A stretch of 32,493 nt of DNA from the NCBI RefSeq assembly GCF_004341365.1, contig NZ_SLXH01000036.1, positions 1-32,493 of the forward strand, written 5' to 3'. Shown here piece by piece: positions 2,941-27,500 of the stretch. Position 1 is the stretch's first letter. Each line of letters begins with the position of its first letter. A program made the position numbers and the translations under genes. The stretch comes from Simplicispira metamorpha. Lineage in GTDB: Bacteria > Pseudomonadota > Gammaproteobacteria > Burkholderiales > Burkholderiaceae_C. The notes below the pieces were generated by a model that was not told where the DNA came from, ran no database searches, and worked only from the letters and a program-made list of their open reading frames with translations.

Positions 2941-2952
2941 GTCTGATTGGAC
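2941..2952 (+). promoter_or_regulatory. Site A: GTCY-N4-RGAC palindrome in the tesA1/tesA2 divergent region
   Basis: GTCTGATTGGAC followed by GATG lies between the divergent tesA1 and tesA2 genes. Sites with the same arms and the same GATG flank occur at 14201 and 27345. A hexamer GAATAT starts 24 bases after the palindrome (2977-2982). If it is the -10 box, the palindrome is centred near -42.5 and the tesA2 leader is about 70 bases. The arms and spacing are visible; function as an activator site is inferred. No matching -10 was found toward tesA1. Confidence 0.55.
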
Positions 2953-3059
2953 GATGAGCCCTGCCGATGCGGGTGGGAATATCTGCCCATCGCAAGGGAT
3001 TTTCCTTGTGCGTTCACCCCCTCTGCCGCGTAGAGCAAAGCCTTTCGGAGACAAGCACC

Positions 3060-4256
3060 ATGATGACAGTAAGAGACGATTATTTGACGCCCGAAGCCAT
3101 TGAGTTGATCGAACGCGCCCGCGCCATGGCGCCGCGTTTGGCCGAGCGCGCCCGTGCAGCGGAAGACGCTTTGATGGTGCCGCGCGAGACTGTCGCGGAG
3201 ATGCAGGAGGCGGGCTTTTTCAAGGTGCTGCAGCCCAAGCGCTGGGGCGGCTACGAAATGGATCCGCGTGTTTTCTACACCGTGCAAATGGCGCTGGCCG
3301 AAGGCTGCATGGCCACCGCCTGGATTTATGGCGTGATTGGTGTCCACAACTGGCAAATTCCGCTGTTCCCGGAGCAGGCGCAAATCGACGTCTGGGGCCA
3401 AGACCCCACCACGCTGACCGCTTCGACTTACATGCCCACCGGCAAGGCCGAGCCGGTGGAAGGCGGCTACCGCTTCAGCGGCCGCTGGAGCTGGAGCAGT
3501 GGCTCGCAGCACTGCGAGTGGATTTTGCTGGGCGGCCTGCTGCCCAAGAAAGACGGCTCGGGCGTGTTGGAGCACTGCACCTTCTTGCTGCCCAAGAAAG
3601 ACTTCAAGATCATCGAAAACTTTGACGTGCTGGGCCTGCGCGCCACCGGCAGCCACGACATCGAAGTGACCGACGCCTTTGTGCCCGCGCACCGCACCCA
3701 CCGTACCAACGACCACAGCGACGCTGGCTGCCCTGGCCGTGCCGTCAACCCCGGTTGGCTCTACCGCATTCCGTTCACGCAGGTGTTCCAGCGCGCGGTG
3801 TCGTCGGCCTGCTTGGGCGCGACCGATGCCGCCATCAACAGCTTTCGCCAACGCTGCGCCAGCTTTGTTGGCAAGCACGGTGCCAAGACGGCAGAAGACG
3901 TCAACTCCCAGCTGGCCGTGAGCGAGGCCATGATGATGACCGACCAAGCCAAGCTGGTGCTGTATCGCAACTTCCAGCGCATCGTCGATTGCGCCAAGAA
4001 CGGCACGGTGATGGACGTGGAAGAGCGCCTGATGCAACGTGCCCAGGCATCGCAGGTGCCCAAGCGCTGCGCCGAGGTGGTCAACGAGATCATGCGCGCC
4101 TGCGCAGCCGGTGGCGTGTTCAAGACCAACCCCATCGAGCGCACTTTCCGCGACCTGCACGTGGCGCGCGGCCACATTGCCAACAACAGCGATACCTATG
4201 CACGCAGCCATGGCGCCGTGATGCTGGGCCTGCCCAACGCCGACGCTTTCGTTTGA
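3060..4256 (+). CDS. tesA2: 3-HSA 4-monooxygenase, oxygenase component (TesA2/HsaA)
   Basis: A 398-residue group D flavin monooxygenase with the acyl-CoA-dehydrogenase fold, like HsaA and HpaH oxygenases. Recognisable segments are FFKVLQPKRWGGYEMDP near the N terminus, GRWSWSSGSQHCEW in the beta domain and GLRATGSHDIEV. With reduced flavin from TesA1 it hydroxylates 3-HSA, the aromatised 9,10-seco-steroid, to the catechol cleaved by TesB. The ATG at 3060 is chosen because GGAG lies about 10 bases upstream; the open frame extends to 2967 but the extra residues look unlike the family. It heads a plus-strand operon running into tesH 13 bases later, with site A in its promoter region. The match to the steroid hydroxylase is strong. 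Confidence 0.92.
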   Translation: MMTVRDDYLTPEAIELIERARAMAPRLAERARAAEDALMVPRETVAEMQEAGFFKVLQPKRWGGYEMDPRVFYTVQMALAEGCMATAWIYGVIGVHNWQIPLFPEQAQIDVWGQDPTTLTASTYMPTGKAEPVEGGYRFSGRWSWSSGSQHCEWILLGGLLPKKDGSGVLEHCTFLLPKKDFKIIENFDVLGLRATGSHDIEVTDAFVPAHRTHRTNDHSDAGCPGRAVNPGWLYRIPFTQVFQRAVSSACLGATDAAINSFRQRCASFVGKHGAKTAEDVNSQLAVSEAMMMTDQAKLVLYRNFQRIVDCAKNGTVMDVEERLMQRAQASQVPKRCAEVVNEIMRACAAGGVFKTNPIERTFRDLHVARGHIANNSDTYARSHGAVMLGLPNADAFV

Positions 4257-4269
4257 GCGGTAACCACCC

Positions 4270-6054
4270 ATGACCACAGGAGGCGGCGTGCAGCACCCAC
4301 CCTTGAAAGACGAACAGCAGTTTGACGTGATCGTCGTCGGCTCGGGCGCTGGTGCGCTGCTGGCCGCCATCCGAGCCAGCGATGAGGGGCTCAAAACCCT
4401 CGTGGTGGAAAAAACCGCGCTGGTTGGTGGTACCTCGGCCCTGTCGGGCGGCGGTATCTGGATTCCTGACAACCACGACATGCCCAAGGCCGGGCTGCGC
4501 GACAGCATCGAGGTGGCCTTTGGCTACGTCAAAGCCTGTGCCCAGGGACTGGCCAGCGACGACCGCGTGCTGGCCTACGTCGAGACGGCGCGCCACATGG
4601 CGCGCTATCTGGCGCAGATCGGCGTGCCCTACCGCTGCATGCCGCATTACTCGGATTACTACCCCAACGTTCAGGGTGCGTTACCTGGTGGGCGCACTAT
4701 GGACCCGTTGGACTTCAACGCGGCCCGGCTAGGTCTGGAGGGCTTGGCGCTGCTGCGCCCGACCAACCCGGGCCAGTTGATTTTTGGCCGGATGCACATC
4801 AACGCCTTCCAGGCACGCTCCATGCTGGCGCGCGAGCGCAAAGCCAAGTGGATGCTGATGGGCATCATGGCCCGCTATTTTCTCGATTACCCCTGGCGCA
4901 GCAAAACCCGCCGCGACCGCCGCCTGACCGGCGGCCAGGCGCTGGTGGGTGGCCTGCTGGCGGCGCTGCGCCAGCGCAAGATTGCCCTGTGGCTGGACAC
5001 GCCCATGGAGTCGTTGACCACCGACGCGGGCCGCGTCACTGGCGTGGTCGTGCGCAAAGATGGCCAGGCGCTGCGCCTGCAAGCGCGCAAGGCGGTGATC
5101 CTGGGCGCGGGCGGTTTTGAGCGCAACCAGGCCATGCGTGAGCAATACCTGCCCCAGCCCACCAACCAGGCCTGGACGAGCACGCCGCCCGATGCCAACA
5201 CCGGCGACACCATCCGTGCGGGCGCCGCCGTGGGCGGCAAGCTGCACCTGATGGCGCACACCTGGGGCGTGCCCACGCTGGACGTGCCCAAGGAAGAGAA
5301 ATTCCGCCCGCTGTTTGTCGAGCGCTCCCTGCCCGGCTGCATGGTGGTCAACGCCCGGGGCGAGCGCTTTTTGAACGAATCGGGGCCGTACCCCGAGTTC
5401 CAGCAGGCCATGTACGCCAACCACGCAAAAACGGGCGGCGCCATTCCGGCATGGATTGTTTTTGATGCCACTTTCCGCGCCAACTACCCCATGGGCCCGC
5501 TCATGCCTGCGACGGCGGTGCCCGACAGCCGGTTGCGCAAGAGCTGGCTGGGCAAGGTGTACTGGAAGGGCGAAACCCTGCCCGAGCTGGCCGCTGAAAT
5601 CGGCGTCGATGCCGCTGGCCTGGTGGCCAGTGCCGCCCGCATGACCGAATTTGCCCGCACCGGCAAAGACCTGGAGTTCGACCGGGGCGGCAATGTGTTT
5701 GACCGCTACTACGGCGATGTCAACGTCAAGCCCAATCCCAACTTGGCGCCTATCCAGAAAGGGCCGTTCTATGCCATCCGGCTGTTTCCTGGCGACATCG
5801 GCACCAAGGGCGGTCTGCTGACCGACCGCGACGCCCGGGTGCTGGATGAGGCAGGCAAGGTCATTGAGGGCCTGTACTGCGTAGGCAACAACTCGGCCTC
5901 GGTGATGGGGCCTGCCTACCCCGGTGCGGGCTCGACGCTGGGCCCGGCCATGACCTTTGCCTACCGCGCCATTGCCGCCATCCAGGGCAAGCCGCTGGCG
6001 CTGGAGCGCACCGAGTTGCTCCAGGGCGCGCCCCGCGTGGGGCAGGCGGCATGA
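4270..6054 (+). CDS. tesH: 3-ketosteroid Delta1-dehydrogenase (TesH/KstD)
   Basis: FAD-dependent dehydrogenase of about 594 residues that introduces the 1(2) double bond in ring A of 3-ketosteroids, a step needed for ring B opening. The FAD dinucleotide motif VIVVGSGAGALLAA is at residues 20-33, followed by VEKTALVGGTSALSGGGIWIP (46-66). The substrate-side motif GPFYAIRLFPGDIGTKGG begins at residue 498 with a probable catalytic Tyr501, and GAGSTLGPAMTFAYRA is near the C terminus. These blocks closely match the C. testosteroni enzyme as I remember it. The ATG at 4270 has no clear Shine-Dalgarno; an in-frame GTG at 4288 follows AGGAGG by four bases and may be the true start. Its stop overlaps the next start (ATGA). 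Confidence 0.94.
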   Translation: MTTGGGVQHPPLKDEQQFDVIVVGSGAGALLAAIRASDEGLKTLVVEKTALVGGTSALSGGGIWIPDNHDMPKAGLRDSIEVAFGYVKACAQGLASDDRVLAYVETARHMARYLAQIGVPYRCMPHYSDYYPNVQGALPGGRTMDPLDFNAARLGLEGLALLRPTNPGQLIFGRMHINAFQARSMLARERKAKWMLMGIMARYFLDYPWRSKTRRDRRLTGGQALVGGLLAALRQRKIALWLDTPMESLTTDAGRVTGVVVRKDGQALRLQARKAVILGAGGFERNQAMREQYLPQPTNQAWTSTPPDANTGDTIRAGAAVGGKLHLMAHTWGVPTLDVPKEEKFRPLFVERSLPGCMVVNARGERFLNESGPYPEFQQAMYANHAKTGGAIPAWIVFDATFRANYPMGPLMPATAVPDSRLRKSWLGKVYWKGETLPELAAEIGVDAAGLVASAARMTEFARTGKDLEFDRGGNVFDRYYGDVNVKPNPNLAPIQKGPFYAIRLFPGDIGTKGGLLTDRDARVLDEAGKVIEGLYCVGNNSASVMGPAYPGAGSTLGPAMTFAYRAIAAIQGKPLALERTELLQGAPRVGQAA

Positions 6055-7730: not shown

Positions 7731-7738
7731 GGATGGAT

Positions 7739-8500: not shown

Positions 8501-8554
8501 GTGGCCGGGCGCTGCGCTGCCGCTGTGCCCATCACATTCTCCATATTTTTATGT

Positions 8555-8605: not shown

Positions 8606-8639
8606 TAGTGTTTGACGCTGCCCTACCAAGGAGTTGACC

Positions 8640-11404: not shown

Positions 11405-13123
11405 ATGACGGCCTCCACTTCCTCCAGGGCGCTTACCCCTGTGGCCTTGAAAGCAACGCGCTGGCGGCCTTCCTGGCGCTTGTCCACGCGCCTGTCGGTG
11501 GCGTTTGGCCTGGTGCTGGGGCTGCTGCTGGTGATCACGGCGGTGGCCTTGCACCGCATGCAGCGCATCGACGCCCACACCACGCGCATGCAAGAGGTCA
11601 ACCACAGCCGCATCGCCGTGATACAGACCATGATGAATGCGGTCAACGAGGTGACGGTGGCGATGTTGGGCGTGACGCTGGTGGTGGACGAGGTGGACGC
11701 CAAAGAGCAGGCCGACCTGCTCGCCAAGGGGCTGGAGCGCTACCGCAACGCCCGCGCCCAGTTCAAAACCTTGTCCGAGGCCGCGCCCGATCCGGAACAA
11801 GACGCCATGCTGGCTGCGCTGGAGAAAGTGGCCACACGCGGGCTCGACAGCGCCGATTACGTGCGCGATGCCCTGCGCTCGGGCAACAGCAACCTGGGCA
11901 ATATTTTTCGCCAGCGCAACCCCACCCCCTTGCAACACGAGTGGCTGGACCAACTGAGGGCGCAGGCCCAGCATGAAGCGCAGGGCGCCGCAGCGCAGGG
12001 CCAGGCCATCCAGGCCGAGTTTGCGCTGGCACGCCAGTGGCTGCTGGGCGCGGCGGGCGCAGCCATTGCCATCAGCGTGGTCGCTGGCATCCTGATTTTG
12101 CGCAGCGTGACGCGGCCCCTGGCGCAGGCCATCGACCACGCCCAGCGCATTGCCCAGGGCGACCTGACTGGCGACATCGTGGCCACGGGCACCGATGAAA
12201 CCAGCGATTTGCTGACCGCACTGGGGCGCATGCAGCAGCAGTTGCGCACCTTGGTGGCCAGCATCCACGACTCTGCCGGGGGCATCACGCTGGCCAGCCG
12301 GGAAATCGCCCAGGGCAACCAGGATTTGTCGACCCGCACCGAACAGGCCGCCAGCGATTTGCAGTCCACCGCCATCTCGGTGGGCGAGCTGGCGGGCGTG
12401 GTGCGCGCCTCGGCGGCGTCGGCCGCCCAGGCCGATGCCCTGGCGCGGCAGGCTGCCAGCACCGCCAGCCAGGGCGGCGAAGTGGTCGCCAGCGTCGAGA
12501 CGGTGATGGACGAAATCCTCTCGGGCGCGCGCCGCATTGCCGACATCGTCGGGGTGATCGACTCCATTGCCTTCCAGACCAACATCCTGGCGCTCAATGC
12601 GGCGGTGGAGGCGGCGCACGCCGGTTCGCAGGGCCGGGGCTTTGCCGTGGTGGCGACCGAAGTGCGCAGCCTGGCGCAGCGCGTGGTGGCCGCCGCGCAC
12701 GACATCAAGCAGCTCATCGAGCTGTCGTTGGCCAGCGCCAACCACGGCTCGCAGCTGGCGCGCAACGCGGGTGAAACCATGCAGCACATCGTCACCAGCG
12801 TGCAGCGCGTGGCCGCCACCATCGGCGAGGTGGCCACCGCCGCAGGCACGCAGTCGTCGGGCATTGAGGATGTGAGCGCCGCCGTGGGCCGCCTGGACGA
12901 CATGACGCAGCGCAACGCCGCGCTGGTCGAGCAGTCGGCCGCCGCCGCGCAGGCGCTGGAGCACCAGGCGGTGCAGCTGGAAGAGCTGGTGGGTGTGTTC
13001 CACGGTGCGCCGTCCCAGGGGCGCCATTCGGGCGCACCCGGTGCAGCACTGAAATATGAATCAAAACAGGCTGTAGCCCTTGCAGGTCATGCGCCAGCAG
13101 CTATGGTTATCGGAGCAATCTGA
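11405..13123 (+). CDS. Methyl-accepting chemotaxis protein
   Basis: A 572-residue transmembrane chemoreceptor: TM1 about 28-49, a short helical periplasmic sensor region (about 50-210), TM2 about 212-233, HAMP about 234-285 and a cytoplasmic signalling hairpin with its tip around IAFQTNILALNAAVEAA (388-404). The tip departs from the near-invariant AARAGEQGRGF: it reads AAHAGSQGRGF, so His405 and Ser408 replace Arg and Glu. The last 24 or so residues are encoded by a diverged copy of the interspersed repeat. The start follows AAGGAA by five bases. The gene sits 54 bases after the FadD3-like ligase on the same strand, inside the catabolic block, suggesting a receptor for steroids or their breakdown products. 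The ligand is not identifiable from sequence. Confidence 0.93.
   Translation: MTASTSSRALTPVALKATRWRPSWRLSTRLSVAFGLVLGLLLVITAVALHRMQRIDAHTTRMQEVNHSRIAVIQTMMNAVNEVTVAMLGVTLVVDEVDAKEQADLLAKGLERYRNARAQFKTLSEAAPDPEQDAMLAALEKVATRGLDSADYVRDALRSGNSNLGNIFRQRNPTPLQHEWLDQLRAQAQHEAQGAAAQGQAIQAEFALARQWLLGAAGAAIAISVVAGILILRSVTRPLAQAIDHAQRIAQGDLTGDIVATGTDETSDLLTALGRMQQQLRTLVASIHDSAGGITLASREIAQGNQDLSTRTEQAASDLQSTAISVGELAGVVRASAASAAQADALARQAASTASQGGEVVASVETVMDEILSGARRIADIVGVIDSIAFQTNILALNAAVEAAHAGSQGRGFAVVATEVRSLAQRVVAAAHDIKQLIELSLASANHGSQLARNAGETMQHIVTSVQRVAATIGEVATAAGTQSSGIEDVSAAVGRLDDMTQRNAALVEQSAAAAQALEHQAVQLEELVGVFHGAPSQGRHSGAPGAALKYESKQAVALAGHAPAAMVIGAI
13061..13108 (+). repeat. Interspersed repeat, copy 2, within the chemoreceptor 3' end
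   Basis: The stretch beginning TCAAAACAGGCTGTAGC and ending GCGCCAGCAGCTATGG aligns with the repeat at 8555 (CAAAACGGCCTCCAGC ... GCGCTAGCAGCTACCG). The centre is diverged and the inner stem is broken. It supplies the last codons of the chemoreceptor, making a tail rich in Ala, Val and Ile. Confidence 0.6.
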
Positions 13124-13205: not shown

Positions 13206-14051
13206 TCAGCGGCCCTCGAACGTGGGCTTGCGCTTTTCAATGAAGGCTTGCATGCCTTCTTTCTGGTCGCGCGTGGCAAACAGCAGCTGGTTGGCTTTGC
13301 GCTCCAGCATCAGCGCCGTCTCCAGCGAGGCATCGACGCCCGCCAGCACCACTTCCTTGATCTGCATGGCGGCCAGCGGCGGCATGGTGGCAATCAGCGT
13401 GGCCATTTTCAAAGCCTCGGGCAGCACCTGGTCGTCGGGCAGCACCTGGCTGACCAGGCCCATGGCGCGTGCTTCTTCGGCGCCCACGGGCTTGCCCGTG
13501 AGCAACATGCGCATGGCGTTGAACTTGCCCACGGCGCGCACCAGGCGCTGCGTGCCGCCGATGCCCGGCATGATGCCGATGCGGATTTCGGGCTGCGAGA
13601 AGCTGGCGCCTTCGCCCGCCAGGATGATGTCGCAGTGCATGGCCAGCTCGGCGCCGCCGCCAAAAGCGTAGCCGCACACCGCCGCAATGATGGGTTTGGG
13701 GCAGCGCTCGATGGGCGCCCAGACGCGCTCGGTGTGGCGCTGCATGATTTCAATCGGCCCGGCGCCCTCCATGCTTTTGATGTCGCCCCCGGCGGCAAAC
13801 ACCTTCTCGCCCCCGGTCAGCACGATCACGCGCACGGCGGGGTCGGCGGCCAGTTGCGTGAACGCCTGCGAGAGCAGCGCTTGCAGGTGCAGGCTCAGTG
13901 CGTTGGTGGCCTGCGGGCGGTTCAGGCGCACCACGGCCACGCCTTCGTGGGGGTAGTCCACCAGCAATTCGCGGCTGTCGGCCGGGCTGGCCGGGGCGGC
14001 GCTGGCAGAAGAAGAGGGGGCAGAGGCGGGGGGGGGCGTGTCGGGGCGCAT
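13206..14051 (-). CDS. Enoyl-CoA hydratase/isomerase family protein
   Basis: A 281-residue crotonase-fold enzyme with an Ala/Ser/Pro-rich N-terminal stretch of about 28 residues. The oxyanion-hole motif AAGGDIKSM and both catalytic-type glutamates are present, in GGGAELAMHCD and FSQPEIRIGIMPG, so it should be an active 2-enoyl-CoA hydratase of the EchA8/PaaF kind rather than a ring hydrolase of the EchA20 kind. It is transcribed alone, opposite to its neighbours and divergent from the SDR at 14250; site C lies between them. It probably hydrates an unsaturated CoA ester from the side chain or the C/D rings. The start at 14051 has a modest AGGA upstream. Confidence 0.88.
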   Translation of the reverse strand: MRPDTPPPASAPSSSASAAPASPADSRELLVDYPHEGVAVVRLNRPQATNALSLHLQALLSQAFTQLAADPAVRVIVLTGGEKVFAAGGDIKSMEGAGPIEIMQRHTERVWAPIERCPKPIIAAVCGYAFGGGAELAMHCDIILAGEGASFSQPEIRIGIMPGIGGTQRLVRAVGKFNAMRMLLTGKPVGAEEARAMGLVSQVLPDDQVLPEALKMATLIATMPPLAAMQIKEVVLAGVDASLETALMLERKANQLLFATRDQKEGMQAFIEKRKPTFEGR

Positions 14052-14176: not shown

Positions 14177-14200
14177 TGGTCAGGGGGGTGCTGTCACATC

Positions 14201-14212
14201 GTCCTTTTGGAC
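14201..14212 (-). promoter_or_regulatory. Site C: GTCY-N4-RGAC palindrome between the hydratase and SDR genes
   Basis: GTCCTTTTGGAC is a perfect GTCC/GGAC dyad in the divergent region. On the minus strand it is followed by GATG, exactly as at sites A and B. AT-rich hexamers lie 24 bases from the palindrome in both directions: GAACAT at 14171-14176 toward the hydratase, and TAAATT at 14237-14242 toward the SDR. It could therefore serve both promoters. Binding is inferred. Confidence 0.55.
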
Positions 14213-14233
14213 GTATCTGCGCAGGGGTGCAAT

Positions 14234-14247
14234 CCGTAAATTTACGG
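14234..14247. promoter_or_regulatory. Perfect 14-bp palindrome directly before the SDR start codon
   Basis: CCGTAAATTTACGG ends two bases before the ATG at 14250, where a Shine-Dalgarno would normally be. The TAAATT inside it sits at the expected -10 position relative to site C, which would place the transcription start at or next to the ATG and give a leaderless mRNA. It could equally be an operator for a second regulator. Confidence 0.45.
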
Positions 14248-14249
14248 TC

Positions 14250-15035
14250 ATGACACAGACCAGCAACAGCGATTTTGACCAGCGTGTGGTGCTCATCACC
14301 GGGGGCACCAAGGGCATAGGCCGCGGCATTGCCGAGGGCTTTTTGGCCGCAGGCGCCACCGTGGTGGTGTGCGCCCGCAGCGCCCCCGAAGCACTGCCCA
14401 CGGCGGGCGCGCGCAGCGCCGAATTTTTGCCCTGCGATGTGCGCGACGCCGATGCCGTGCAGGCGCTGGTGGCGGCCATCGTGCAGCGCCACGGGCGCCT
14501 GGATGTGCTGGTACACAACGCGGGCGGCAGTCCTCCGGTGGATGCCGCCACGGTATCGCCGCGCTTTCACGAGGGCGTGATCCGCCTGAACCTGACGGCA
14601 GCGCTGCACATGGCGCAGGCCGCCAATGCCGCCATGCAAACGCAGGCGGGGGGTGGTGTCATCGTTTTCATTGGCAGCGTTAGCGCGCTGCGGCCCTCGC
14701 CCGGCACGGCGGCCTACGGTGCGGCCAAGGCGGCGGTGCTGAGCCTGGCCTCGTCGCTGGCGGTGGAGTGGGCGCCCAAGGTGCGCGTCGTGGCCGTCAG
14801 CCCCGGGCTGGTGCGCACCGAGCAATCGCACCTGCATTTTGGCGACGAGGCGGGCATTGCCGCCGTCGGCGCCACGATTCCGGCGGGCCGTATGGCCGAG
14901 CCTTCCGACATTGCCCAGGCCTGCCTGTACGTGGCCTCGCCGCGTGCGGCCTACCTGAGCGGCACCAACCTGTTGCTGCACGGCGGCGGCGAAAAGCCCG
15001 CCTTCCTGGCCGCAGCGCAAGCACACCTTTCCTGA
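14250..15035 (+). CDS. Short-chain dehydrogenase/reductase, first gene of the side-chain operon
   Basis: A 261-residue classical SDR with cofactor motif TGGTKGIG (18-25), NAGG (90-93), and catalytic Ser143, Tyr156 and Lys160 (YGAAK). It probably oxidises a hydroxyl on a steroid ring, or a 3-hydroxyacyl-CoA of the side chain or C/D rings; sequence alone does not decide. It is not close to the 3beta/17beta-HSD or HsdA of this window, nor clearly to IpdF. It starts an 11-gene plus-strand run reaching 27114. There is no Shine-Dalgarno: a 14-bp palindrome occupies that place, so the message may be leaderless. No alternative start fits the SDR N terminus better. Confidence 0.85.
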   Translation: MTQTSNSDFDQRVVLITGGTKGIGRGIAEGFLAAGATVVVCARSAPEALPTAGARSAEFLPCDVRDADAVQALVAAIVQRHGRLDVLVHNAGGSPPVDAATVSPRFHEGVIRLNLTAALHMAQAANAAMQTQAGGGVIVFIGSVSALRPSPGTAAYGAAKAAVLSLASSLAVEWAPKVRVVAVSPGLVRTEQSHLHFGDEAGIAAVGATIPAGRMAEPSDIAQACLYVASPRAAYLSGTNLLLHGGGEKPAFLAAAQAHLS

Positions 15036-18816: not shown

Positions 18817-18838
18817 CGCCAGGCAAGGAGACCACAGC

Positions 18839-20020
18839 ATGTTCATTGACCTGACCCCCGAGCAACACCGCCTGCGCTTGCAGGTGCGCGACTACTTCAA
18901 CACGCTGATGACGCCCGAGCTGCGCCTGGAGCTGCGCGGCGCCGAAGGCGGCGACACCTACCGCAACACCATCCGCCAGATGGGGCGCGACGGCTGGCTG
19001 GCCGTGGGCTGGCCCAAGGAGCACGGCGGCCAGGGCCTGAGCGCTACCGAGCAGCTGATCTTTTTTGAAGAAGCCAACATTGCCGGTGCGCCGCTGCCCT
19101 TCGTGACCATCAGCACCGTCGGGCCCGCCCTGATGGAAAACGGCACGCAGGCGCAAAAAGAGCGCTTCCTGCCCGGCATCGCCGCAGGCGAGATCATTTT
19201 CGCCATCGGTTATTCCGAGCAGCAGGCCGGCTCTGACCTGGCCACGCTCAAGACGCAGGCCCGGCTGGAGGGCGACTTGCAGACCGGCCAATTCATCGTC
19301 AACGGCGCCAAGCTGTGGACGTCGGGCATCGAGTCGGCCGACCATGTCTGGCTGGCGGCGCGCACCAGCCCCGAGCTGGCGCGCCACAAAGGCATCTCCA
19401 TCCTGATTCTGGATACCGATGCGCCGGGTTTTTCGCACACGCTGATCCAGACCGTGGGCAACTTCACGGCGGCCACCTACTACGACAACGTGGCCGTGCC
19501 CGCCGACCGCCTGGTGGGCGAGTTGCATGGCGGCTGGAAGCTCATCACCGCCCAGCTCAACCACGAGCGCTTGGGCCTGGGGTCGTGGTCGGACAAGGTG
19601 TTTGGCCCGTTTGGCCGGGTGCTGCAATGGGCCAAGGCGCGCGATGAGCAGGGCCACCGCGCGGTGGACCAGCCCTGGGTGCGGCGCGCACTGGCCGAGT
19701 GCTATGCCCGCATGGAGGCCATGCGCCTCATCAACTTCCGCATCGCCGCCGACCTGGAAGCCGGCGGCATGGACGTGGCCCTGGCCTCGACCACCAAGGT
19801 CTATGGCTCCGAAGGCGTGCTGGAGATATTGCGCCGGCTGATGGACATCGTCGGCGCCAGCGCGCTGGTGCGTGCGGGCTCCAGCGCGGCGCTGCTGATG
19901 GGCGAGCTGGAGTACGAAATCCGGGCCAGCACCATCAACACCTTTGGTGGCGGCACCAACGAACTGCAGCGCGAGCTGATTGCCCAGTTCGGCTTGAAGA
20001 TGCCGCGCCCGGCGCGCTGA
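18839..20020 (+). CDS. Acyl-CoA dehydrogenase subunit with complete middle domain (side-chain pair 1)
   Basis: A 393-residue acyl-CoA dehydrogenase with intact FAD and substrate motifs: GYSEQQAGSDLATLKT (about 123-138), FIVNGAKLWTSG and the C-terminal TFGGGTNELQREL. It lacks the HGGIG motif kept by the 16061 product, so the two look complementary, like ChsE2 and ChsE1. Together they would desaturate a side-chain acyl-CoA and pass electrons to ETF, encoded at the right end of the window. AAGGAG precedes the ATG by eight bases. A homodimeric enzyme cannot be excluded from sequence. Confidence 0.85.
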   Translation: MFIDLTPEQHRLRLQVRDYFNTLMTPELRLELRGAEGGDTYRNTIRQMGRDGWLAVGWPKEHGGQGLSATEQLIFFEEANIAGAPLPFVTISTVGPALMENGTQAQKERFLPGIAAGEIIFAIGYSEQQAGSDLATLKTQARLEGDLQTGQFIVNGAKLWTSGIESADHVWLAARTSPELARHKGISILILDTDAPGFSHTLIQTVGNFTAATYYDNVAVPADRLVGELHGGWKLITAQLNHERLGLGSWSDKVFGPFGRVLQWAKARDEQGHRAVDQPWVRRALAECYARMEAMRLINFRIAADLEAGGMDVALASTTKVYGSEGVLEILRRLMDIVGASALVRAGSSAALLMGELEYEIRASTINTFGGGTNELQRELIAQFGLKMPRPAR

Positions 20021-20064
20021 AGTCCATCCGCTCAGATACACCACAACGACACTCGGGAGACAGC

Positions 20065-21873
20065 GTGAAAACAGCCCCCATCGTGCCGCGCGAAGTGACG
20101 CAGGCCAAGCTTGACCATCGGACACGGGCGGGCCAGCGCCACCGTGCATCACAGACCTACACGGTGGCCGAGCGCGTCGAGGAAAGCGCGGTGCGCTTTG
20201 CCACGCGGCCCTGCATTTTGTATGGCGACATGCGCTACGACTACGCCGCCACCAACCGGCGCGCCAACCAGGTCGCCCACGCGGCGCACGCGCTGGGCGT
20301 GCGCTGCAACGACGTGGTGGCGCTGTGCATGGAAAACCGCCCGGCCTTCCTGTTTGCCTGGCTGGGCCTGGCCAAGGTGGGCGCCCGGGTGGTGTTTCTC
20401 AATACCAACGTCAGCGGCAAGGCCCTGGCGCATGCGCTGCAGGCCACGGGCGCCACGCACGTGGTGGTAGGCGAGGAGTGCCTGGGCCTGTTGGCCGCCA
20501 CCGAGCTGCCGCCGGGCCTGTGCTACTGGCTCTGGCCGGACGCCGAGCGGCCCGCGTCCGCCGCGCTGCGCGCGCGCTGTAGCGTGGACCTGGAGCAGGC
20601 CGCCGGCCAGGCGCCAGAGCACAACCCGCCTGCCGAGTGGCGCAGCGCCCTGGTGGCGGGCGACCCGGCGCTCTACATCTTCACGTCCGGCACCACCGGC
20701 CTGCCCAAGGCCGCCGTCATCAGCCATGCCCGCTGGCTCATCACCGGCGACGTGATGCAGGCCACCATGGACGTGCAGGCGCACGACTGCTTCTATGTTT
20801 TCTTGCCGCTCTACCACGGCGCCGCTTCGCTGTCGGCCGGGGCCACGGCATTCGTCTCGGGTGCCAGCCTGCTGCTGCGGCGCAAGTTCAGCCGCAGCGA
20901 GTTCTGGGCCGATGTGCGCCGCCACCACGTGACGATCTGCCAGTACGTCGGCGAGATCTGCCGCTTCCTGCTGACCGCAGCACCGCAGACCGACGACCAC
21001 GCGCACCCGCTGCGCAAGATGGTGGGCGCGGGCATGGCGCCTGAAGTCTGGGAGCAGTGGGTGCGGCGTTTTGGCGACCAGTTCCAGATCTACGAAGGCT
21101 GGGGCTCGACCGAGGCCAACACCAACACCATCAACCTGGACAACCGCATCGGTTCCTGTGGCCGCGTGCCGTTCTGGGAAAAAACCAACCTGCGCCTGGT
21201 GCGCTACGACATCGACACCGACACCCACCCGCGCGATGAAAACGGCTTCCTGCAGCTGTGCGAGGTGGGTGAGGTGGGGGAGGCCATTGGCATGATCATC
21301 GACATCCCCGACGTCGTGGGCGGGCGTTTTGAGGGCTACACCTCGCCCGAGGCGACAGAAAAGAAAATCCTGCGCAACGTCTTTCGCCCAGGCGATGCCT
21401 GGTGGTCGTCGGGCGACCTGCTGCGCGTGGATGCCGACGGGTATTGCTGGTTTGTCGACCGGATTGGTGACACCTTCCGCTGGAACAGCGAAAACGTCTC
21501 GACCACCGAGGTGGCCGACGCCCTGGGCGACTTTCCGGGGCTGGACGCCATCACCGTCTATGGCGTGAAGGTGCCCGGTGCCGAAGGCCGCGCCGGCATG
21601 GCGGCGCTGGTACTGCAGCCGGGTGCGCCATTCGATCCGGCGGCGTTCTGGGCCTTTGCCCTGGCGCGCCTGCCGCGCTACGCCGCACCGCTGTACCTGC
21701 GCCTGGCCCCCACCACGGACATGACCGGCAACTACAAGCTGCGCAAGGTCGATTTGCAGCGCCAGGGCTACGACACGGCGCAGGTCGCAGACCCTTTGTT
21801 CGTACGCGATGACGCCGCCAAGACCTATGTGCCGCTCCATGCCGCGGTACCGGCGCAAAAGGTGCTGGCATGA
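20065..21873 (+). CDS. FATP-type acyl-CoA synthetase, probable steroid side-chain CoA ligase
   Basis: A 602-residue ligase of the fatty-acid-transport-protein/very-long-chain synthetase branch, which includes mycobacterial FadD17/FadD19 and the human bile acid CoA ligase. The ATP loop IFTSGTTGLPK is at about 205-215; the branch signature FRWNSENVSTTEVAD and the C-terminal GNYKLRKVDLQRQGYD are clear. It probably forms the CoA thioester of a carboxylated steroid side chain, for example a C24 bile acid. It starts with GTG preceded by GGAG, 44 bases after the previous gene, and its stop overlaps the next start (ATGA). The ligase family is secure; the substrate is inferred. Confidence 0.83.
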   Translation: MKTAPIVPREVTQAKLDHRTRAGQRHRASQTYTVAERVEESAVRFATRPCILYGDMRYDYAATNRRANQVAHAAHALGVRCNDVVALCMENRPAFLFAWLGLAKVGARVVFLNTNVSGKALAHALQATGATHVVVGEECLGLLAATELPPGLCYWLWPDAERPASAALRARCSVDLEQAAGQAPEHNPPAEWRSALVAGDPALYIFTSGTTGLPKAAVISHARWLITGDVMQATMDVQAHDCFYVFLPLYHGAASLSAGATAFVSGASLLLRRKFSRSEFWADVRRHHVTICQYVGEICRFLLTAAPQTDDHAHPLRKMVGAGMAPEVWEQWVRRFGDQFQIYEGWGSTEANTNTINLDNRIGSCGRVPFWEKTNLRLVRYDIDTDTHPRDENGFLQLCEVGEVGEAIGMIIDIPDVVGGRFEGYTSPEATEKKILRNVFRPGDAWWSSGDLLRVDADGYCWFVDRIGDTFRWNSENVSTTEVADALGDFPGLDAITVYGVKVPGAEGRAGMAALVLQPGAPFDPAAFWAFALARLPRYAAPLYLRLAPTTDMTGNYKLRKVDLQRQGYDTAQVADPLFVRDDAAKTYVPLHAAVPAQKVLA

Positions 21874-22985
21874 CGCGGCTGAGCGCCCGCGCGGTGCAGG
21901 ACTATCCCTTCAGCGCGCCCGACTGCGACGGCTCGGTGGTCGAAGTGGCGCCAGGCATCCTGTGGGCGCGCATGCCCATGCCGATGGCGCTGGACCACAT
22001 CAACGTCTACCTGCTGCGCGGTGACGACGGCTGGACGCTGATCGACACCGGCCTGAACACGCCAGCCGCCCGCGACTGCTGGGAGCACATTGCTTCCACG
22101 CACCTGCAGGGCCTGCCCATCGTGCGCCTGGTGTGCACGCACATGCACTACGACCATGCGGGCCTGTCCCATTGGCTGTGCGAACGCTTTGGCATTCCGC
22201 TGTACATGACGCACGGCGAATACTTCATGATGCGCACGCTGGCCGAGCCGGTGCCCGACCCGCTGCCGAGTGACCAGGCTGTGTTCTATGCGCGCTCGGG
22301 CATGCCGCCCGAGCGCACCGAACGCATGTGGAAAGCCATGCGCGCCGACCCCTTCATGCCGCCGCAGCCGCAGTCGTTTCACCGGCTGCGCGGCGGCGAC
22401 GACATCACGCTGGGCTCGCGCACCTGGCGCGTGGTCATCGGCGAAGGCCATTCGCCCGAGCACGCCTGCCTGTACTGCGCGCAGGACGAGATCCTGATCG
22501 CTGGCGACCAGTTGCTGCCGCGCATTAGCTCCAATGTGCTGGTCACCAGCATCGAGCCCGAGGCCAACCCGCTGCAACTGTGGCTGGAGTCGCTCACGCG
22601 GCTGGAGCGGCTGGCGCCCGGCACGCTGGTGCTGCCCTCGCACGAGCGGGTGTTTCGCGGCCTGCACCCCCGCACGCAGGAACTGCGCGAACACCACGGC
22701 CAGCAGCTGGGCCAGTTGCGTGACCATCTGGCCGAGCACGGCACCTGCACCGCCTTTGACGCCATGCTGTGCCTGTTTCCGCGCCTGCGCACCCCCGTGG
22801 ACGACATGCTGGCGCTGGGCGAGACCATTGCCCACCTGTCCTGGCTGCGCTACAGCGGTGTGCTGCGGCGCGTGCTGGACGAAGATGGCATCTACCGCTT
22901 TGCGCTGACCGACCCGGCAGCAGCCACGCCACCAGAAACCCCAGAGCCATCCGAAGAGGCAGACATTTCTTATGCAAGACACTGA
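21870..22985 (+). CDS. Metallo-beta-lactamase-fold hydrolase
   Basis: A 371-residue protein with the metal motif THMHYDH (His91, His93, Asp95, His96) and further ligand candidates in GEGHSPEH, IAGDQLL and LPSHERV. It resembles LACTB2-like hydrolases, with a long C-terminal helical part. Its function is unknown. Being sandwiched between a CoA ligase (4-base overlap) and an acyl-CoA dehydrogenase (14-base overlap) points to hydrolysis of a CoA thioester, lactone or other intermediate of side-chain breakdown. The N terminus is unusual in its DCDGSVVEVAPGILWARMP stretch, which sets up the usual first MBL strand. The fold is certain, the substrate unresolved. Confidence 0.85.
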   Translation: MTRLSARAVQDYPFSAPDCDGSVVEVAPGILWARMPMPMALDHINVYLLRGDDGWTLIDTGLNTPAARDCWEHIASTHLQGLPIVRLVCTHMHYDHAGLSHWLCERFGIPLYMTHGEYFMMRTLAEPVPDPLPSDQAVFYARSGMPPERTERMWKAMRADPFMPPQPQSFHRLRGGDDITLGSRTWRVVIGEGHSPEHACLYCAQDEILIAGDQLLPRISSNVLVTSIEPEANPLQLWLESLTRLERLAPGTLVLPSHERVFRGLHPRTQELREHHGQQLGQLRDHLAEHGTCTAFDAMLCLFPRLRTPVDDMLALGETIAHLSWLRYSGVLRRVLDEDGIYRFALTDPAAATPPETPEPSEEADISYARH

Positions 22986-24159
22986 CACATTCCGCGCCGA
23001 CACCCGGGCCTGGCTGCAGGCCAACTGCCCCGAGTCCATGCGCCAGCCGATCACGCCCGATGAGATGGTGTGGAGCGGCTCCAGCGTCCGCTTTGGCAGC
23101 GAAGACCAGCGCCTGTGGTTCGAGCGCATGCGCGACCGGGGCTGGTTTGCGCCCGGCTGGCCCGCCGCGCTGGGCGGTGGCGGCCTGACGCCCCGGCAAG
23201 CCCGCATCGTCGAAGAAGAAATGCTGCGCCTGGGTTGCCGCCAGCCACAGTTCAACCTGGGCGTGTGGATGCTCGGGCCGGTGCTGCTGGAGCTGGGCAC
23301 CGAAGCGCAAAAACAAGAACATTTGGTGCCGATGATGCAGGGGCGCGCCCGCTGGTGCCAGGGCTTCAGCGAGCCCAATGCGGGCTCTGACCTGGCCAGC
23401 CTTAAGACCGCCGCGCGCATCGAGGACAACGGCGACTTCGTCATCAACGGCTCGAAAATCTGGACGTCTTACGGCGACGCCGCCGACTGGATGTACGCCC
23501 TGGTGCGCACCGACCCCACGGCGCGCAAGCAAGAGGGCATCAGCTTCGTGCTGATTGACATGAAGAGCCCTGGCATCACCGTCAAGCCCATCGAGCTGAT
23601 CAGCGGCAAATCCAGCTTTTGCGAGGTGTTCTTTGACGAGGTGCGGGTGCCTGCGCGCCAGCTGGTCGGCCCGCTGCATGGCGGCTGGACGGTGGCCAAG
23701 AAGCTGCTGCAACACGAGCGCGCCGCCATGTCCAAGTTCAGCGAAGGCTCGGCGCCCTCGCACGATGCGCTGGCCGTGGCACGGCCTTATTTGTTTGATG
23801 CAGACGGCACGCTGCTGGAGCCGGTGTGGCGCGACCGCCTGGCCGCGCTGTTGATGGATTCGCAGGCCTTTGGCCTGACGCACCAGCGCGTGCTGGAGCA
23901 GGCCATGGCACGCATGGACGTGAGCGGGCCGTCCTCGATCATGAAGCTGGTGCAGACCGAGCAGGAAGTGGCCAAGTACGAGCTGCTGATGCAGGTCATG
24001 GGCCAGCGCGGCCTGAGCTGGGAGGGCGACGAGTTCAGCAGCCAGGAGCACGACATTGGCCGCCTGTGGCTGCTGTCCAAAACCTACACCATTGCGGGCG
24101 GCAGCAGCGAAGTGCAGCTCAACATCATTGCCAAGCGCGTGCTGGGCCTGCCGGGCTGA
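22972..24159 (+). CDS. Acyl-CoA dehydrogenase subunit with complete middle domain (pair 2)
   Basis: A 395-residue acyl-CoA dehydrogenase with intact GFSEPNAGSDLASLKT, FVINGSKIWTSYGDAADW and C-terminal TIAGGSSEVQLNIIAKRVLG motifs. The adjacent gene at 24206 encodes a subunit with the complementary pattern, so the two probably make a second heteromeric steroid acyl-CoA dehydrogenase, perhaps for a longer side chain than pair 1. The gene begins 14 bases inside the preceding MBL-fold gene in another frame, which implies coupled translation. Electrons would go to ETF. Substrate length cannot be deduced. Confidence 0.86.
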   Translation: MQDTDTFRADTRAWLQANCPESMRQPITPDEMVWSGSSVRFGSEDQRLWFERMRDRGWFAPGWPAALGGGGLTPRQARIVEEEMLRLGCRQPQFNLGVWMLGPVLLELGTEAQKQEHLVPMMQGRARWCQGFSEPNAGSDLASLKTAARIEDNGDFVINGSKIWTSYGDAADWMYALVRTDPTARKQEGISFVLIDMKSPGITVKPIELISGKSSFCEVFFDEVRVPARQLVGPLHGGWTVAKKLLQHERAAMSKFSEGSAPSHDALAVARPYLFDADGTLLEPVWRDRLAALLMDSQAFGLTHQRVLEQAMARMDVSGPSSIMKLVQTEQEVAKYELLMQVMGQRGLSWEGDEFSSQEHDIGRLWLLSKTYTIAGGSSEVQLNIIAKRVLGLPG

Positions 24160-24205
24160 TGCCTTGCCACCCCCGCGCAGACGACACAACACACGGAGAC
24201 GCAGC

Positions 24206-25348
24206 ATGGTTTTTTTGCTGAACGATGAACAACGGCAGCTGGCCGACAGCGCCACGGAATTTTTGAACGCCCAGTCGCCCATTGCCTTGCAGCGGCGCCT
24301 GCGCGATACCCGCGCGCCCCTGGGCTATGAGCCCACGCTGTGGCAGCAGGTGGTAGAGCTGGGCTGGCCCGCCGCCGTATTCCCGGAGGAAGACGGCGGC
24401 CTGGGCGTGGGCTACCAGGGCCTGGGCGCCGTCTTTGAGGCCATGGGCCGCACCGTGGCGGCGCTGCCGCTGTTGTCCTCGGTGGTGCTGTGCGGCGAGC
24501 TGCTGCTGGCCGCGGGCACCCAGGCGCAGCGCCAGCGCTGGTTGCCCGGCCTGATCGATGGCCAGCAGCGCCTGGCGCTGGCACTGGACGAGCAGGGCCG
24601 CCACCACCCCGAGCGCATCCGCACGCAGGCGCGGCGCAGCGCCAGCGGCGGCTGGGTGCTGGACGGCGAGAAGTGGTTTGTCATCGACGGCATCGGCGCG
24701 GCCTGGCTCGTCGTGGTGGCGCAGACCATCGGGGCCGAAGGGCAGGGCGAGGGCCTGGGCCTGTTCATGGTCGAAGCCACGCAGCCCGGTGTGGCGCTGC
24801 AACCTACGCTGCTGGCCGATAGCCGCAACCACGCCCGCATCACGCTGACGGGCGTGCAGGTGGCCGACGACCTGCGCCTGCCCGCCACGGCAGGCGCATT
24901 GCAGGCGCTGGACGCCGCCCTGGACCGCGCCCGCATCTGCCTGGCCGCCGAGGGCCTGGGCCTGCTGCGCGAGGCCTTCGAGCGCACCTTGTCGTACCTG
25001 AAGGAGCGGGTGCAATTCGAGGTGCCGATTGGTTCCTTCCAGGCCTTGCAGCACCGCATGGCACGCCTCTACACGGAACTGGAAATGCTGGAGAGCTGCG
25101 TGCGCGCCGCGCTGGCCGCCATCGACGCGGGCGAGCCCGGGCTGGCGCTGCTGGCCAGTCTGGCCAAGGCCCGGGCCTCCGACCTGTGTGAAAAGGTCAC
25201 CAACGAGGCTATCCAGCTGCATGGCGGCATCGGCGTGACAGATGAGTTTGACCTGGGCCTGATCGTCAAGCGCGCACGCGTGCTCCAGCACAGCCTGGGC
25301 GACGGGGTGTTTCACCGCGACCGCTATGCTCGCCTGCAAGGATTCTGA
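24206..25348 (+). CDS. Acyl-CoA dehydrogenase subunit, half-site type (pair 2)
   Basis: A 380-residue acyl-CoA dehydrogenase-like protein that retains QLHGGIGVTDEFDLGL near the C terminus. It lacks the SE-x2-AGSD block, having LALDEQGRHHPERI at that place, and has no GG(T/S)-x-E-x-Q motif. This mirrors the 16061 product and supports a heteromeric enzyme with the 22972 gene product. The start at 24206 follows GGAG by eight or nine bases; the longer open frame to 24056 overlaps the previous gene and adds no family-like sequence. The stop is 2 bases from the next start. Confidence 0.83.
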   Translation: MVFLLNDEQRQLADSATEFLNAQSPIALQRRLRDTRAPLGYEPTLWQQVVELGWPAAVFPEEDGGLGVGYQGLGAVFEAMGRTVAALPLLSSVVLCGELLLAAGTQAQRQRWLPGLIDGQQRLALALDEQGRHHPERIRTQARRSASGGWVLDGEKWFVIDGIGAAWLVVVAQTIGAEGQGEGLGLFMVEATQPGVALQPTLLADSRNHARITLTGVQVADDLRLPATAGALQALDAALDRARICLAAEGLGLLREAFERTLSYLKERVQFEVPIGSFQALQHRMARLYTELEMLESCVRAALAAIDAGEPGLALLASLAKARASDLCEKVTNEAIQLHGGIGVTDEFDLGLIVKRARVLQHSLGDGVFHRDRYARLQGF

Positions 25349-25350
25349 AC

Positions 25351-27114
25351 ATGAACGCTGCTGCCTCTTCTGTCCCTTCCACCCCCATGACCGCCCCCGC
25401 CACTGCTGCCACCTCTGCCGACGCGCAAGACCTGCTGGCGCTGGCTGCCCGTTGCCGCAGCCAACTGACCGCGCCCGGCGCGCCCTTTGAGCTGATCGAT
25501 CTGGACATCAACGGCCAGACCGTGCCCGCCTACCGCCACGCCCAGCCCACGCTGGCAGCGCTGATCGACGCTGGCCGCGCCCACGCGGCGCGCGAGTTCA
25601 TGGTCTATGAAAACGACCGCTGGACGTTTGAGCGCTTTTACCAGGCGGTCGATGCCCTGGCCGGGCGCTTGCAGACCGACTACGGCGTGGCCGCTGGCGA
25701 GCGCATCGCCATCGCCATGCGCAACCGCCCCGAGTGGGCCGTGGCATTTGCGGCAGCAGCCCTGGTGGGCGCCGTGCCCGCACCCCTGAACAGCTTTGGC
25801 CTGCACGATGAGTTGCTGGCCGGCCTGCGCGACGTGCAACCGCGCTGGCTGCTGTGCGACGCCGAGCGCTTTGCGCATGTCAAGGACGACCTGGCCGCGC
25901 TGCACTGCCGCGCTGCGGTGGTCGATGGCGCGCCCGGCCAGGGCCATGCCGACTGGGCGGCGCTGACCGCACCCGGCGCGCCCGCCGTGCAGCCGCCCGC
26001 GCTGGCGCCGGACGACGATGCACTCATCCTGTTCACCTCGGGCGCCAGTAGCCAGGCCAAGGGCGTGCTCTCCACCCAGCGCGCGGTGTGCCAGGCGCTG
26101 TACAACATTGATTACATCGGCGCGATTTCCGCCATGACCTCGCCCGACATGATCGCCGCCATGATGGCGCGCGGCTTGCAGCCCACCACGCTGACGGCCG
26201 TGCCGCTGTTCCATGTCAGTGGCCTGCACGCGCAGTTGCTGGCATCGCTGCGCCATGGCCGCAGGCTGGTGTTCATGCGGCGCTGGAATCCGGCGCAGGC
26301 GTTGCAGCTCATCCAGACCGAAAAAATCACCCAGTTCAACGGCGCGCCCTCGATGGTGATGCAGTTGCTGGCCGAGCCCGGTTTTGACGACCCTGCCATC
26401 ACCGGCAGCCTGGGCGGCGTGGGCTTTGGCGGCGCGGGCCTGCCCCAGCGCCTGATCGACGACGTGCTGGGCCGGCGTGGCGACTCCATGTCGGGCATCG
26501 GCTTTGGCCTGACCGAAACCAACGGCGTGGGCGCGGCTGCGTCAGGCCGCCTGTTCCAGTTGCGGCCGCACGCCTCGGGCCTGATTTCGCCCATCATCGA
26601 GCTGCGCGTGGCGGAGTTTGACGGCACGCCCTTGCCCACGGGCGAGTCGGGCGAGCTGTGGCTGCGCGGCGTCACCGTGATGAAGGAATACTGCGCCCAG
26701 CCCGATGCCACGGCGCGCGCGCTGGACGGCGGCTGGTTTCGCTCCGGCGATATCGGCATGGTGGATGCAGAAGGGTTTGTGCGCATCGTCGATCGCATCA
26801 AGGACGTGATCAACCGTGCGGGCGAAAAAATCGCCGCCGCTGAAATCGAATCGTGCCTGCTACAGCACCCGGCGCTGGTCGAGGCGGCCGTGTTTGCCCA
26901 GCCCGACGACCAGACCGGCGAAGCCGTGGTGGCCGTGGTGGTGCTGGCGCCCGGCGAGGTGCTGAGTGCGCAGGAAGTGCAGGCGCATGTGGCTGCGCGC
27001 CTGGCCGCCTACAAGGTGCCCCAGCAGGTGCATGTGCGCCACGACAGCCTGCCGCGCAACCCGGCCGGAAAAATGCTGAAAACCGTGCTCAAGCGCGAAT
27101 ACGCCAGCGCCTGA
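25351..27114 (+). CDS. Acyl-CoA synthetase with variant ATP loop
   Basis: A 587-residue adenylate-forming ligase, last gene of the long plus-strand operon. The C-terminal hinge (DRIKDVINRAGEKIAAAEIE) and the PAGKMLKTVLKREY lysine motif are normal. The ATP-binding loop reads TSGASSQAKG (229-238) instead of the usual TSGTTGxPKG: the second Thr, the following Gly and the Pro are replaced. The N terminus has about 25 low-complexity Ala/Ser/Thr/Pro residues. It probably activates a second side-chain acid, such as the C22 acid after one round of shortening, or a different ring fragment. The ligase fold is certain; activity with the variant loop is probable because the key Lys and Ser/Gly are kept. 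Confidence 0.8.
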   Translation: MNAAASSVPSTPMTAPATAATSADAQDLLALAARCRSQLTAPGAPFELIDLDINGQTVPAYRHAQPTLAALIDAGRAHAAREFMVYENDRWTFERFYQAVDALAGRLQTDYGVAAGERIAIAMRNRPEWAVAFAAAALVGAVPAPLNSFGLHDELLAGLRDVQPRWLLCDAERFAHVKDDLAALHCRAAVVDGAPGQGHADWAALTAPGAPAVQPPALAPDDDALILFTSGASSQAKGVLSTQRAVCQALYNIDYIGAISAMTSPDMIAAMMARGLQPTTLTAVPLFHVSGLHAQLLASLRHGRRLVFMRRWNPAQALQLIQTEKITQFNGAPSMVMQLLAEPGFDDPAITGSLGGVGFGGAGLPQRLIDDVLGRRGDSMSGIGFGLTETNGVGAAASGRLFQLRPHASGLISPIIELRVAEFDGTPLPTGESGELWLRGVTVMKEYCAQPDATARALDGGWFRSGDIGMVDAEGFVRIVDRIKDVINRAGEKIAAAEIESCLLQHPALVEAAVFAQPDDQTGEAVVAVVVLAPGEVLSAQEVQAHVAARLAAYKVPQQVHVRHDSLPRNPAGKMLKTVLKREYASA

Positions 27115-27208
27115 ACCGCACGCTGCCCCGCAGCGGTGTGCCGCGCGGCAAGGCCCGATTCGGCTCTGGCTGCCACACAGCCCCCGTGTCAGGGGTTGTG
27201 GATTAGGC

Positions 27209-27262
27209 ATCAAAAAGGCTTCAAGCGCTTGCTGGATAAGCGCAAGCAGCTATCTTTTATAT
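27209..27262 (+). repeat. Interspersed palindromic repeat, copy 3
   Basis: ATCAAAAAGGCTTCAAGCGC continues through TTGCTGGATAAGCGCAAGCAGCTAT and shares the core GCGCTTGCTGGATAAGCGC with the copy at 8555. The inner arms GCTTGC and GCAAGC form a hairpin. It lies about 95 bases after the ligase stop and could contribute to transcript ending. Confidence 0.75.
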
Positions 27263-27344
27263 AGCAATTGATTCCTCTGCGGGAGCTGCGTTGCAGCGCC
27301 CGCTTTGGTGCGTCTGCACGGCGCAGGCTCCGGGTCGGCCCCTA

Positions 27345-27356
27345 GTCTTATCAGAC
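27345..27356 (+). promoter_or_regulatory. Site B: GTCY-N4-RGAC palindrome upstream of DUF1329
   Basis: GTCTTATCAGAC is a perfect GTCT/AGAC dyad preceded by CTA and followed by GATG, like site A (TTA before, GATG after). AACAAT starts 24 bases downstream (27381-27386) and may be the -10, giving a leader of about 108 bases before the ATG at 27501. This would put the envelope genes under the same control as tesA2 and the hydratase/SDR promoters. Function is inferred. Confidence 0.55.
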
Positions 27357-27500
27357 GATGGAGAGAACACAGCGGGGTTGAACAATTCCCCCCGGAAGGA
27401 TAGGGAGGAGCAGTTCTGACCCGTTCGCCACAGACCACCACCACGCACCGTGTAGCGATTCGGATCGCCACCCTTTTGACAGAGATGCAAGGAGACTTCA

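Follow-up and report, generated by a model that had tools for sequence, protein, structure and literature searches.

A probable class II operator for the LuxR-type regulator TesR/TeiR at steroid-degradation promoters of Simplicispira metamorpha and related bacteria

Promoters of steroid-degradation genes on a 32,493-nucleotide contig of Simplicispira metamorpha (NZ_SLXH01000036.1, positions 1 to 32,493; this whole stretch of DNA is referred to as the window) carry a polar palindromic element, GTCY-N4-RGAC followed by GATG, set at one fixed distance from a -10-like hexamer. The element is very probably the operator of the LuxR-type steroid regulator TesR/TeiR, arranged in class II geometry and serving a regulon that would include TesR's own operon. 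The case is built on the sequence and spacing of the element, the rule of its orientation, its conservation operon by operon and its co-occurrence with TesR homologues. No published TesR/TeiR operator was found in the open-access papers searched (a scope outside which the primary TeiR/TesR papers lie); the present analysis predicts such an operator for several genera, together with its polarity and additional operons under it.

The initial annotation of the window had placed the 16-mer (GTCY-N4-RGAC with its GATG) at 2941-2956 (+), 14197-14212 (-) and 27345-27360 (+), and all three positions are exact. Taken to 20 bp, the sites read tttaGTCTGATTGGACGATG in the tesA2 promoter (2937..2956, +), atacGTCCAAAAGGACGATG between divergent hydratase and SDR genes (14197..14216, -) and cctaGTCTTATCAGACGATG ahead of the DUF1329/DUF1302 operon (27341..27360, +), each containing an exact 16-mer match. 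These are the only 16-mer matches in the window; none of 100 dinucleotide shuffles reached three (shuffle mean 0.00). The bare 12-mer had been expected about twice by chance; the computed expectation is 1.07, and the window holds it at the same three places only. Exactly 24 bases intervene, as had been stated, between the 12-bp palindrome and a predicted -10: GAATAT for tesA2 (2977-2982, +), AACAAT for the DUF1329/DUF1302 operon (27381-27386, +) and GAACAT for the hydratase (14176-14171, minus strand). Pfam bears out the identities proposed for the downstream genes: a tesA2-like 3-HSA hydroxylase at the head of a rightward operon (3060..4256, +; Acyl-CoA_dh_2/N, run on the longer frame 2967-4256), DUF1329 (27501-28874) followed by DUF1302 (28916-30466; both on the + strand), and an enoyl-CoA hydratase (13206..14051, -; ECH_1, 1.1e-78; the start at ATG 14051 is a choice) divergent from an SDR oxidoreductase (14250..15035, +). 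The tesA2-like hydroxylase has the acyl-CoA dehydrogenase fold, and its orthologues occur in 10 other genomes of the family at 66-75% identity (one of them partial).

Spacing, polarity and operator shape were read from 85 non-redundant oriented sites in steroid or TesR regions of this genome and its relatives (de-duplicated by a 50-base key, with matches within 50-80 bases of stretch ends excluded; perfectly palindromic sites are counted twice, as oriented entries, and the P values ignore relatedness). A NANNAT hexamer begins exactly 24 bases on in 49 of the 85, the mean being 1.7 per offset over offsets 4-59 with the peak included. Among nine own-genome sites that had not been seen when the three window sites were described, the hexamer stands at exactly 24 in four (P=3.5e-7) and at 23-25 in seven (P=8.5e-11); among relatives' sites it stands at exactly 24 in 42/73. 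The shared class-II-style promoter architecture that had been proposed from three sites is supported by these additional ones. Where 12-mer places have GATG on one side, a -10 at 23-25 lies on the GATG side in 43 of 53 and only on the opposite side in one, and none of the 20 places lacking GATG has such a -10 on either side (this table of 12-mer places is not de-duplicated; loci L082 and L086 overlap in it with genomes G131 and G142, respectively), so that the GATG arm is seen to point to the gene. GATG, which had been described as an extension of the motif, is indeed present, and is more accurately one arm of a larger dyad: CATC stands on the far side in 32 of the 85 oriented entries, and the full operator is therefore the 20-bp palindrome CATCGTCY-N4-RGACGATG. 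The far arm is looser and often reads T[A/C]GTCY (T is found two bases before GTC in 79/85); the gene-facing arm, RGACGATG, is strict. In size (about 20 bp) and in its constant spacing from a sigma-70 -10, the dyad matches the class II (lux-box-like) configuration. Given a 6-nt discriminator, its centre would lie at about -42.5 and its GATG arm would cover the -35 position, as is usual for class II activators.

A scan of the whole genome, which the initial annotation had proposed, gives 14 oriented 16-mer matches at 13 places in the 3.78-Mb assembly and two for a reversed-pattern control. Eleven of the 13 places are at operon heads on three steroid-gene stretches (the window contig, C36, and two other contigs of this genome, C37 and the end of C3); the remaining two are inside long coding frames. 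The composite motif (the 16-mer plus a NANNAT hexamer 24 bases on) has, in relaxed form, eight sites in the genome, all on steroid stretches, and none for the control. Genes downstream of sites include the tesA2-like hydroxylase, a TesB/HsaC-like extradiol dioxygenase, SDRs, two MFS transporters, an old-yellow-enzyme-type reductase, DUF1329, a thiolase/lipid-transfer protein and a BNR protein, behind which comes an MMPL exporter; a KshA-type Rieske oxygenase is close by on C37. Autoregulation of tesR is predicted because the site at C3:169609 heads an SDR-MaoC-thiolase-tesR gene run. Intergenic counts by a mechanical open reading frame (ORF) caller are uninformative, longest-frame starts overrunning the sites (intergenic in 1/3 for the window and 4/13 for genome G004), and gene-start distances and orthologous heads were used for that reason.

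With the genes at the heads of the own-genome operons as queries (11 heads), 60 of the 85 sites prove to lie directly upstream of one of them; the own-genome heads themselves necessarily account for 11 of these, leaving 49 of 73 sites in relatives, and conservation among relatives, a further check that had been suggested, is thereby borne out. Counting the own genome among the sources, the site precedes the SDR-to-tesR run in 15, the thiolase/lipid-transfer head in nine and the tesB head in six, with the -10 at 24 in every case, and the BNR head in four, all at 23. The other 25 of the 85 sites match no head operon, and 15 of these are perfect-palindrome readings that have no NANNAT at 23-25. 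A matrix built from 62 of the 73 relatives' sites (those with a -10-like hexamer at 23-25) recovers the own-genome sites at scores of 27-38 (34.8 for the tesA2 operator, 28.1 for the hydratase/SDR operator, 35.6 for that of the DUF1329/DUF1302 operon), except for the reverse reading of one palindrome (11.0), and adds two weaker candidates, at C3:180063 (23.0) and C37:6735, minus strand (22.1). In 523 kb of shuffled sequence (shuffles that keep base pairs in blocks only) one match scores at least 14 and none at least 16.

Two divergent promoter regions extend this picture. In each of the 11 tesA2 loci of the family (L091-L101) the operator stands 79-201 bp ahead of the matched start of tesA2 (Y being A in two), and across the tesA2-orthologue loci examined (L102, at 38% identity, left out) a site of this kind is found within 330 bp upstream in 12 of 13. 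Nine of the 11 family loci have in addition a tesA1-facing element (TAGTCC + GGATTC) on the opposite strand. In the window this variant, with one good half-site, is TAGTCCATGTGAAGGATTC (2873..2891, -; matrix score 10.2, which is weak). It precedes a predicted -10, CAAGCT (2848..2853, -), at offset 24, and then a tesA1-like flavin reductase (1832..2821, -; ATG 2821 preceded by AGGAG; Pfam Flavin_Reduct, 2.8e-39). CANNCT occurs at that 24-base offset in all nine element-bearing loci, as read by eye, this -10 being outside the search pattern. In G116 and G104, which lack the tesA1-facing element, the central site is a perfect palindrome that scores highly in both directions (34.6/31.8 and 35.7/32.9). 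The palindrome between hydratase and SDR, read rightward, has GTAT in place of GATG and a matrix score of only 12.9, with a strong hexamer at exactly 24: a predicted SDR -10, TAAATT (14237..14242, +), for which two relatives have TATATT and TAAATT. The SDR ATG falls approximately at the predicted transcription start, so that the SDR mRNA may be leaderless; the geometry is similar in G142 and possibly in L156 (G018).

Across 299 genomes of the family the 16-mer alone is present in 288 and is not diagnostic. Specificity belongs to the 16-mer combined with a -10 at fixed spacing, and the initial annotation is corrected on this point. The composite has 4-8 matches in each of the 11 family genomes with a TesR homologue (39-100% identity, 11/11). 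In the other 288 (counted as lacking TesR and including 21 with more distant LuxR-type matches, 24-31%) there is one match in 19, three in G104 and none in the rest, and a reversed-pattern control gives one composite match in all 299 (Fisher test for co-occurrence of TesR and composite 3e-19, relatedness ignored). The composite is absent from the same-genus genomes that lack TesR (G141, G225 and G294), and the positive genomes G018, G094, G116 and G104 had not been used in finding the spacing. TesR and TesA2 (at least 66% identity) are found together in 10 genomes. Wider sampling recovers TesA2 at E up to 1e-100 in 2/369 genomes of a class sample, both of the same family, and at E up to 1e-60 in 27/300 of an order sample, in which two genomes outside the family, G902 and G941, have TesA2 at 50-53% identity; both of these carry TesR homologues (44% and 40%, respectively), and in G941 a strong site (score 33.4) precedes tesA2 by 154 bp. 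Four TesR-like genes were noted in G941. No complete steroid degrader devoid of a TesR homologue was found in the family, class or order samples. Weaker TesA2-like loci (26, L105-L130; 31-39% identity) seem to encode other enzymes; one matrix match of at least 10 was found among them (11.6) and none of at least 16.

The protein that would read the element is encoded at C3:172234-173409. It has 391 amino acids, about the published length of TesR/TeiR, with a C-terminal LuxR/GerE helix-turn-helix (HTH) domain (GerE 1.1e-6, residues 326-379) and a sub-threshold PAS match. Its gene ends the tesB cluster, on the same strand as the TesB-like dioxygenase gene at C3:155955, and of the genome's 14 GerE matches no other lies on a steroid stretch (another is on C3, about 140 kb off). 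A LuxR-type protein of the kind named as candidate in the initial annotation, TesR/TeiR, is encoded in this genome, and the distribution of its homologues follows that of the composite motif. Among 25 chosen TesR homologues, mean pairwise identity is 85% in the HTH and 90% in its recognition-helix stretch, and 52% and 59% in two other regions, a level of HTH conservation that fits a conserved operator. A structure model of the Polaromonas glacialis homologue (mean predicted local distance difference test score 70, moderate; Protein Data Bank (PDB) matches weak, with listed query-length TM-scores of at most 0.32) suggests, only loosely, a GAF/PAS-plus-HTH fold, and the argument does not lean on it. 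According to work on C. testosteroni cited in PMC6895838, TesR is needed for induction of tesB-tesR, tesA1-tesG and tesA2-ORF18 and is described as a positive regulator; here tesB, tesA1 and tesA2 are all preceded by the element (tesA1 by the one-half-site variant). PMC8399759 relates, from unpublished data, that Pseudomonas stutzeri Chol1 degrades cholate with a delay when one of its two TeiR-like genes is deleted. TesR homologues (L070-L089, G902, G941) occur in several Comamonadaceae genera and beyond, named records including Simplicispira, Polaromonas and Rhodoferax among others; this runs counter to a statement, repeated in PMC6895838, that tesR-like genes are confined to C. testosteroni strains.

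Several observations weigh against assigning the element to TesR. G094 has TesR and sites and no TesA2 match, and G104 (76% complete) has TesA2 and sites and no TesR match. The near-tesA2 site of G902 is weak (15.6) and faces away; in L088 (a metagenome-assembled genome labelled Oxalobacteraceae, TesR 56%) 20 kb of sequence contain no strong operator, the best score being 17.8 for a degenerate site at 11301 with a -10 at 24; and no sites are found on the short contigs L070 and L071. Two of the six tesA2 entries (own included) are without NANNAT, the other four having it at 24, and it is absent from all six SDR1 promoter entries, one of which is doubtfully assigned (G004, 36% identity, 261 bases on). 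The excess of HTH conservation is partly generic, the HTH of TesR and 14 paralogues being 42% identical vs 23-27% elsewhere. Finally, co-occurrence alone cannot single out TesR, because a regulator travelling with the cluster would co-occur too and the samples yielded no complete degrader without a TesR homologue.

A real operator read by such a travelling regulator, with TesR placed upstream as sensor or kinase, is nevertheless improbable. In its favor, PMC6678751 reports TeiR as a polar membrane protein with kinase activity, and PMC10637631 lists genes of the LysR, XRE and response-regulator types within the C. testosteroni JLU460ET cluster, which is steroid-induced. Set against this are the strong conservation of the TesR HTH and the finding that Pfam detects no kinase domain in TesR at E up to 0.001; NCBIfam gives LuxR-type matches and a weak AtoS sensor kinase match (E 0.00097) over residues 190-257, in the PAS-like part. 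Among 78 ORFs besides TesR on the steroid stretches, moreover, Pfam shows one other transcription regulator, of OmpR type (KdpE-type), beside kdpABCD (ORFs were scanned in batches of 9, 30 and 39, the last only to E 1e-8, at which a weak HTH could escape, and covered most ORFs of the stretches, exceptions being for example C37:15586-16839 and some short or end-cut ones). LysR sites, for their part, are normally of the form T-N11-A.

With the -10 at 24, the GATG arm occupies the -35 position, as would suit a repressor that covers the -35 region. A repressor has no need of rigid spacing or of an arm that faces the -10, and the genetics cited in PMC6895838 make TesR/TeiR a positive regulator, so that repression is very unlikely. 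Slightly less credible still is the proposal that an alternative sigma factor uses 16-mer and hexamer as its -35/-10 pair. The spacing, which is fixed, and the conservation, which is strict, speak for it. Against it, the element is a dyad, its perfect palindromes can face both directions (as in G116 and G104), its core lies 24 bases from the -10, and that -10 is sigma-70-like. Chance or base composition, to which the ubiquity of the 16-mer alone might point, can be dismissed, since the composite separates genomes nearly completely, is conserved operon by operon and is confined in all eight relaxed own-genome sites to steroid stretches, and since no matrix match of at least 16 occurs in the 523 kb of shuffled sequence.

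In the mechanism we favor, TesR would be activated by a steroid or by one of its breakdown products, and as a dimer would bind CATCGTCY-N4-RGACGATG over the -35 position, with a sigma-70-type -10 at fixed spacing and the dyad centre near -42.5, and would activate transcription in the class II manner of a lux box. This promoter design would be common to tesA2, tesB, the SDR-to-tesR run, the two MFS transporters, the BNR/MMPL exporter pair, the thiolase/lipid-transfer gene and others; the site ahead of the SDR-to-tesR run would provide positive feedback, and the one-half-site variant would serve tesA1. For the JLU460ET cluster, PMC10637631 lists the LuxR gene itself at a value of 4.88 under one of the four conditions, which fits positive feedback. 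On balance, and by a narrow measure, we incline to the broader proposal that TesR/TeiR, which has been reported to be a membrane steroid kinase, is a DNA-binding steroid receptor of the one-component type controlling the steroid catabolon of many Comamonadaceae, and its own operon, through one polar fixed-geometry class II operator. The promoter-facing arm would be strict, tesA1 and similar divergent partners would have variant half-site operators, and one perfect palindrome could drive both directions.

Neighboring genes on the three stretches deserve brief mention. In the window, a methyl-accepting chemotaxis protein with HAMP domain (11405-13123) lies between a CoA-ligase gene and the hydratase; published work ties TeiR to steroid chemotaxis. 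The exporter behind the BNR-repeat protein in the predicted regulon (C3:174146-176569) is an 807-aa MMPL protein with Patched and sterol-sensing-domain matches. The first steroid operator on C3 has a kdp operon directly ahead of it (C3:142294-151324; KdpA, E1-E2 ATPase, KdpC, KdpD and an OmpR-type regulator). Inside the steroid cluster of C37, just past the old-yellow-enzyme gene, an AAA_21-type (AbiEii-like) ATPase gene and a small unknown gene (2483-4146) have lower third-position guanine-plus-cytosine (GC) content. Past that cluster (18443-31385) third-position GC is low and the genes include an integrase (18443-19657) and recombination genes (Gp3-like, YqaJ), all of phage type, so that the cluster seems to border a prophage or mobile island.

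Regulation in bile-acid-degrading Proteobacteria was described as still largely unknown in a 2021 review (PMC8399759), and the model regulator, TeiR/TesR, has been described in conflicting terms, as LuxR-type activator and as membrane kinase. With a defined operator whose geometry is fixed, direct activation can be tested on short DNAs and regulon members can be predicted wherever a genome has a TesR homologue. The operator also supplies a promoter design for steroid biosensors, and would allow the steroid pathway to be read as one switchable unit.

The closest known system is the TesR/TeiR regulon of C. testosteroni, in which a LuxR-type regulator likewise ends the tesB-tesR cluster and whose TesR-dependent operons (as cited in PMC6895838) carry the site here. 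It differs in that the open-access papers searched gave no operator for it; the operator is predicted here. The actinobacterial KstR and KstR2 regulons similarly place many steroid genes under one regulator. KstR and KstR2 are TetR-type repressors, and the KstR motif is an unrelated AAC-GTT-type palindrome, to which, as had been asserted, the element is unlike: its consensus is T[AC]GTCY-N4-RGACGATG, not an AAC...GTT palindrome. The TesR HTH aligns with ComA in the PDB (E 0.021). ComA of Bacillus is a two-component response regulator, and its box, a LuxR/NarL-type dimer site, also has half-sites four bases apart, of different sequence. The lux box is a 20-bp dyad at about -42.5, over the -35 and with a sigma-70 -10, which is the arrangement predicted here; the present element differs in its half-site and in that only the promoter-proximal arm is strict, and the sensor part of TesR is GAF/PAS-like (on weak fold evidence) in place of an acyl-homoserine-lactone sensor.

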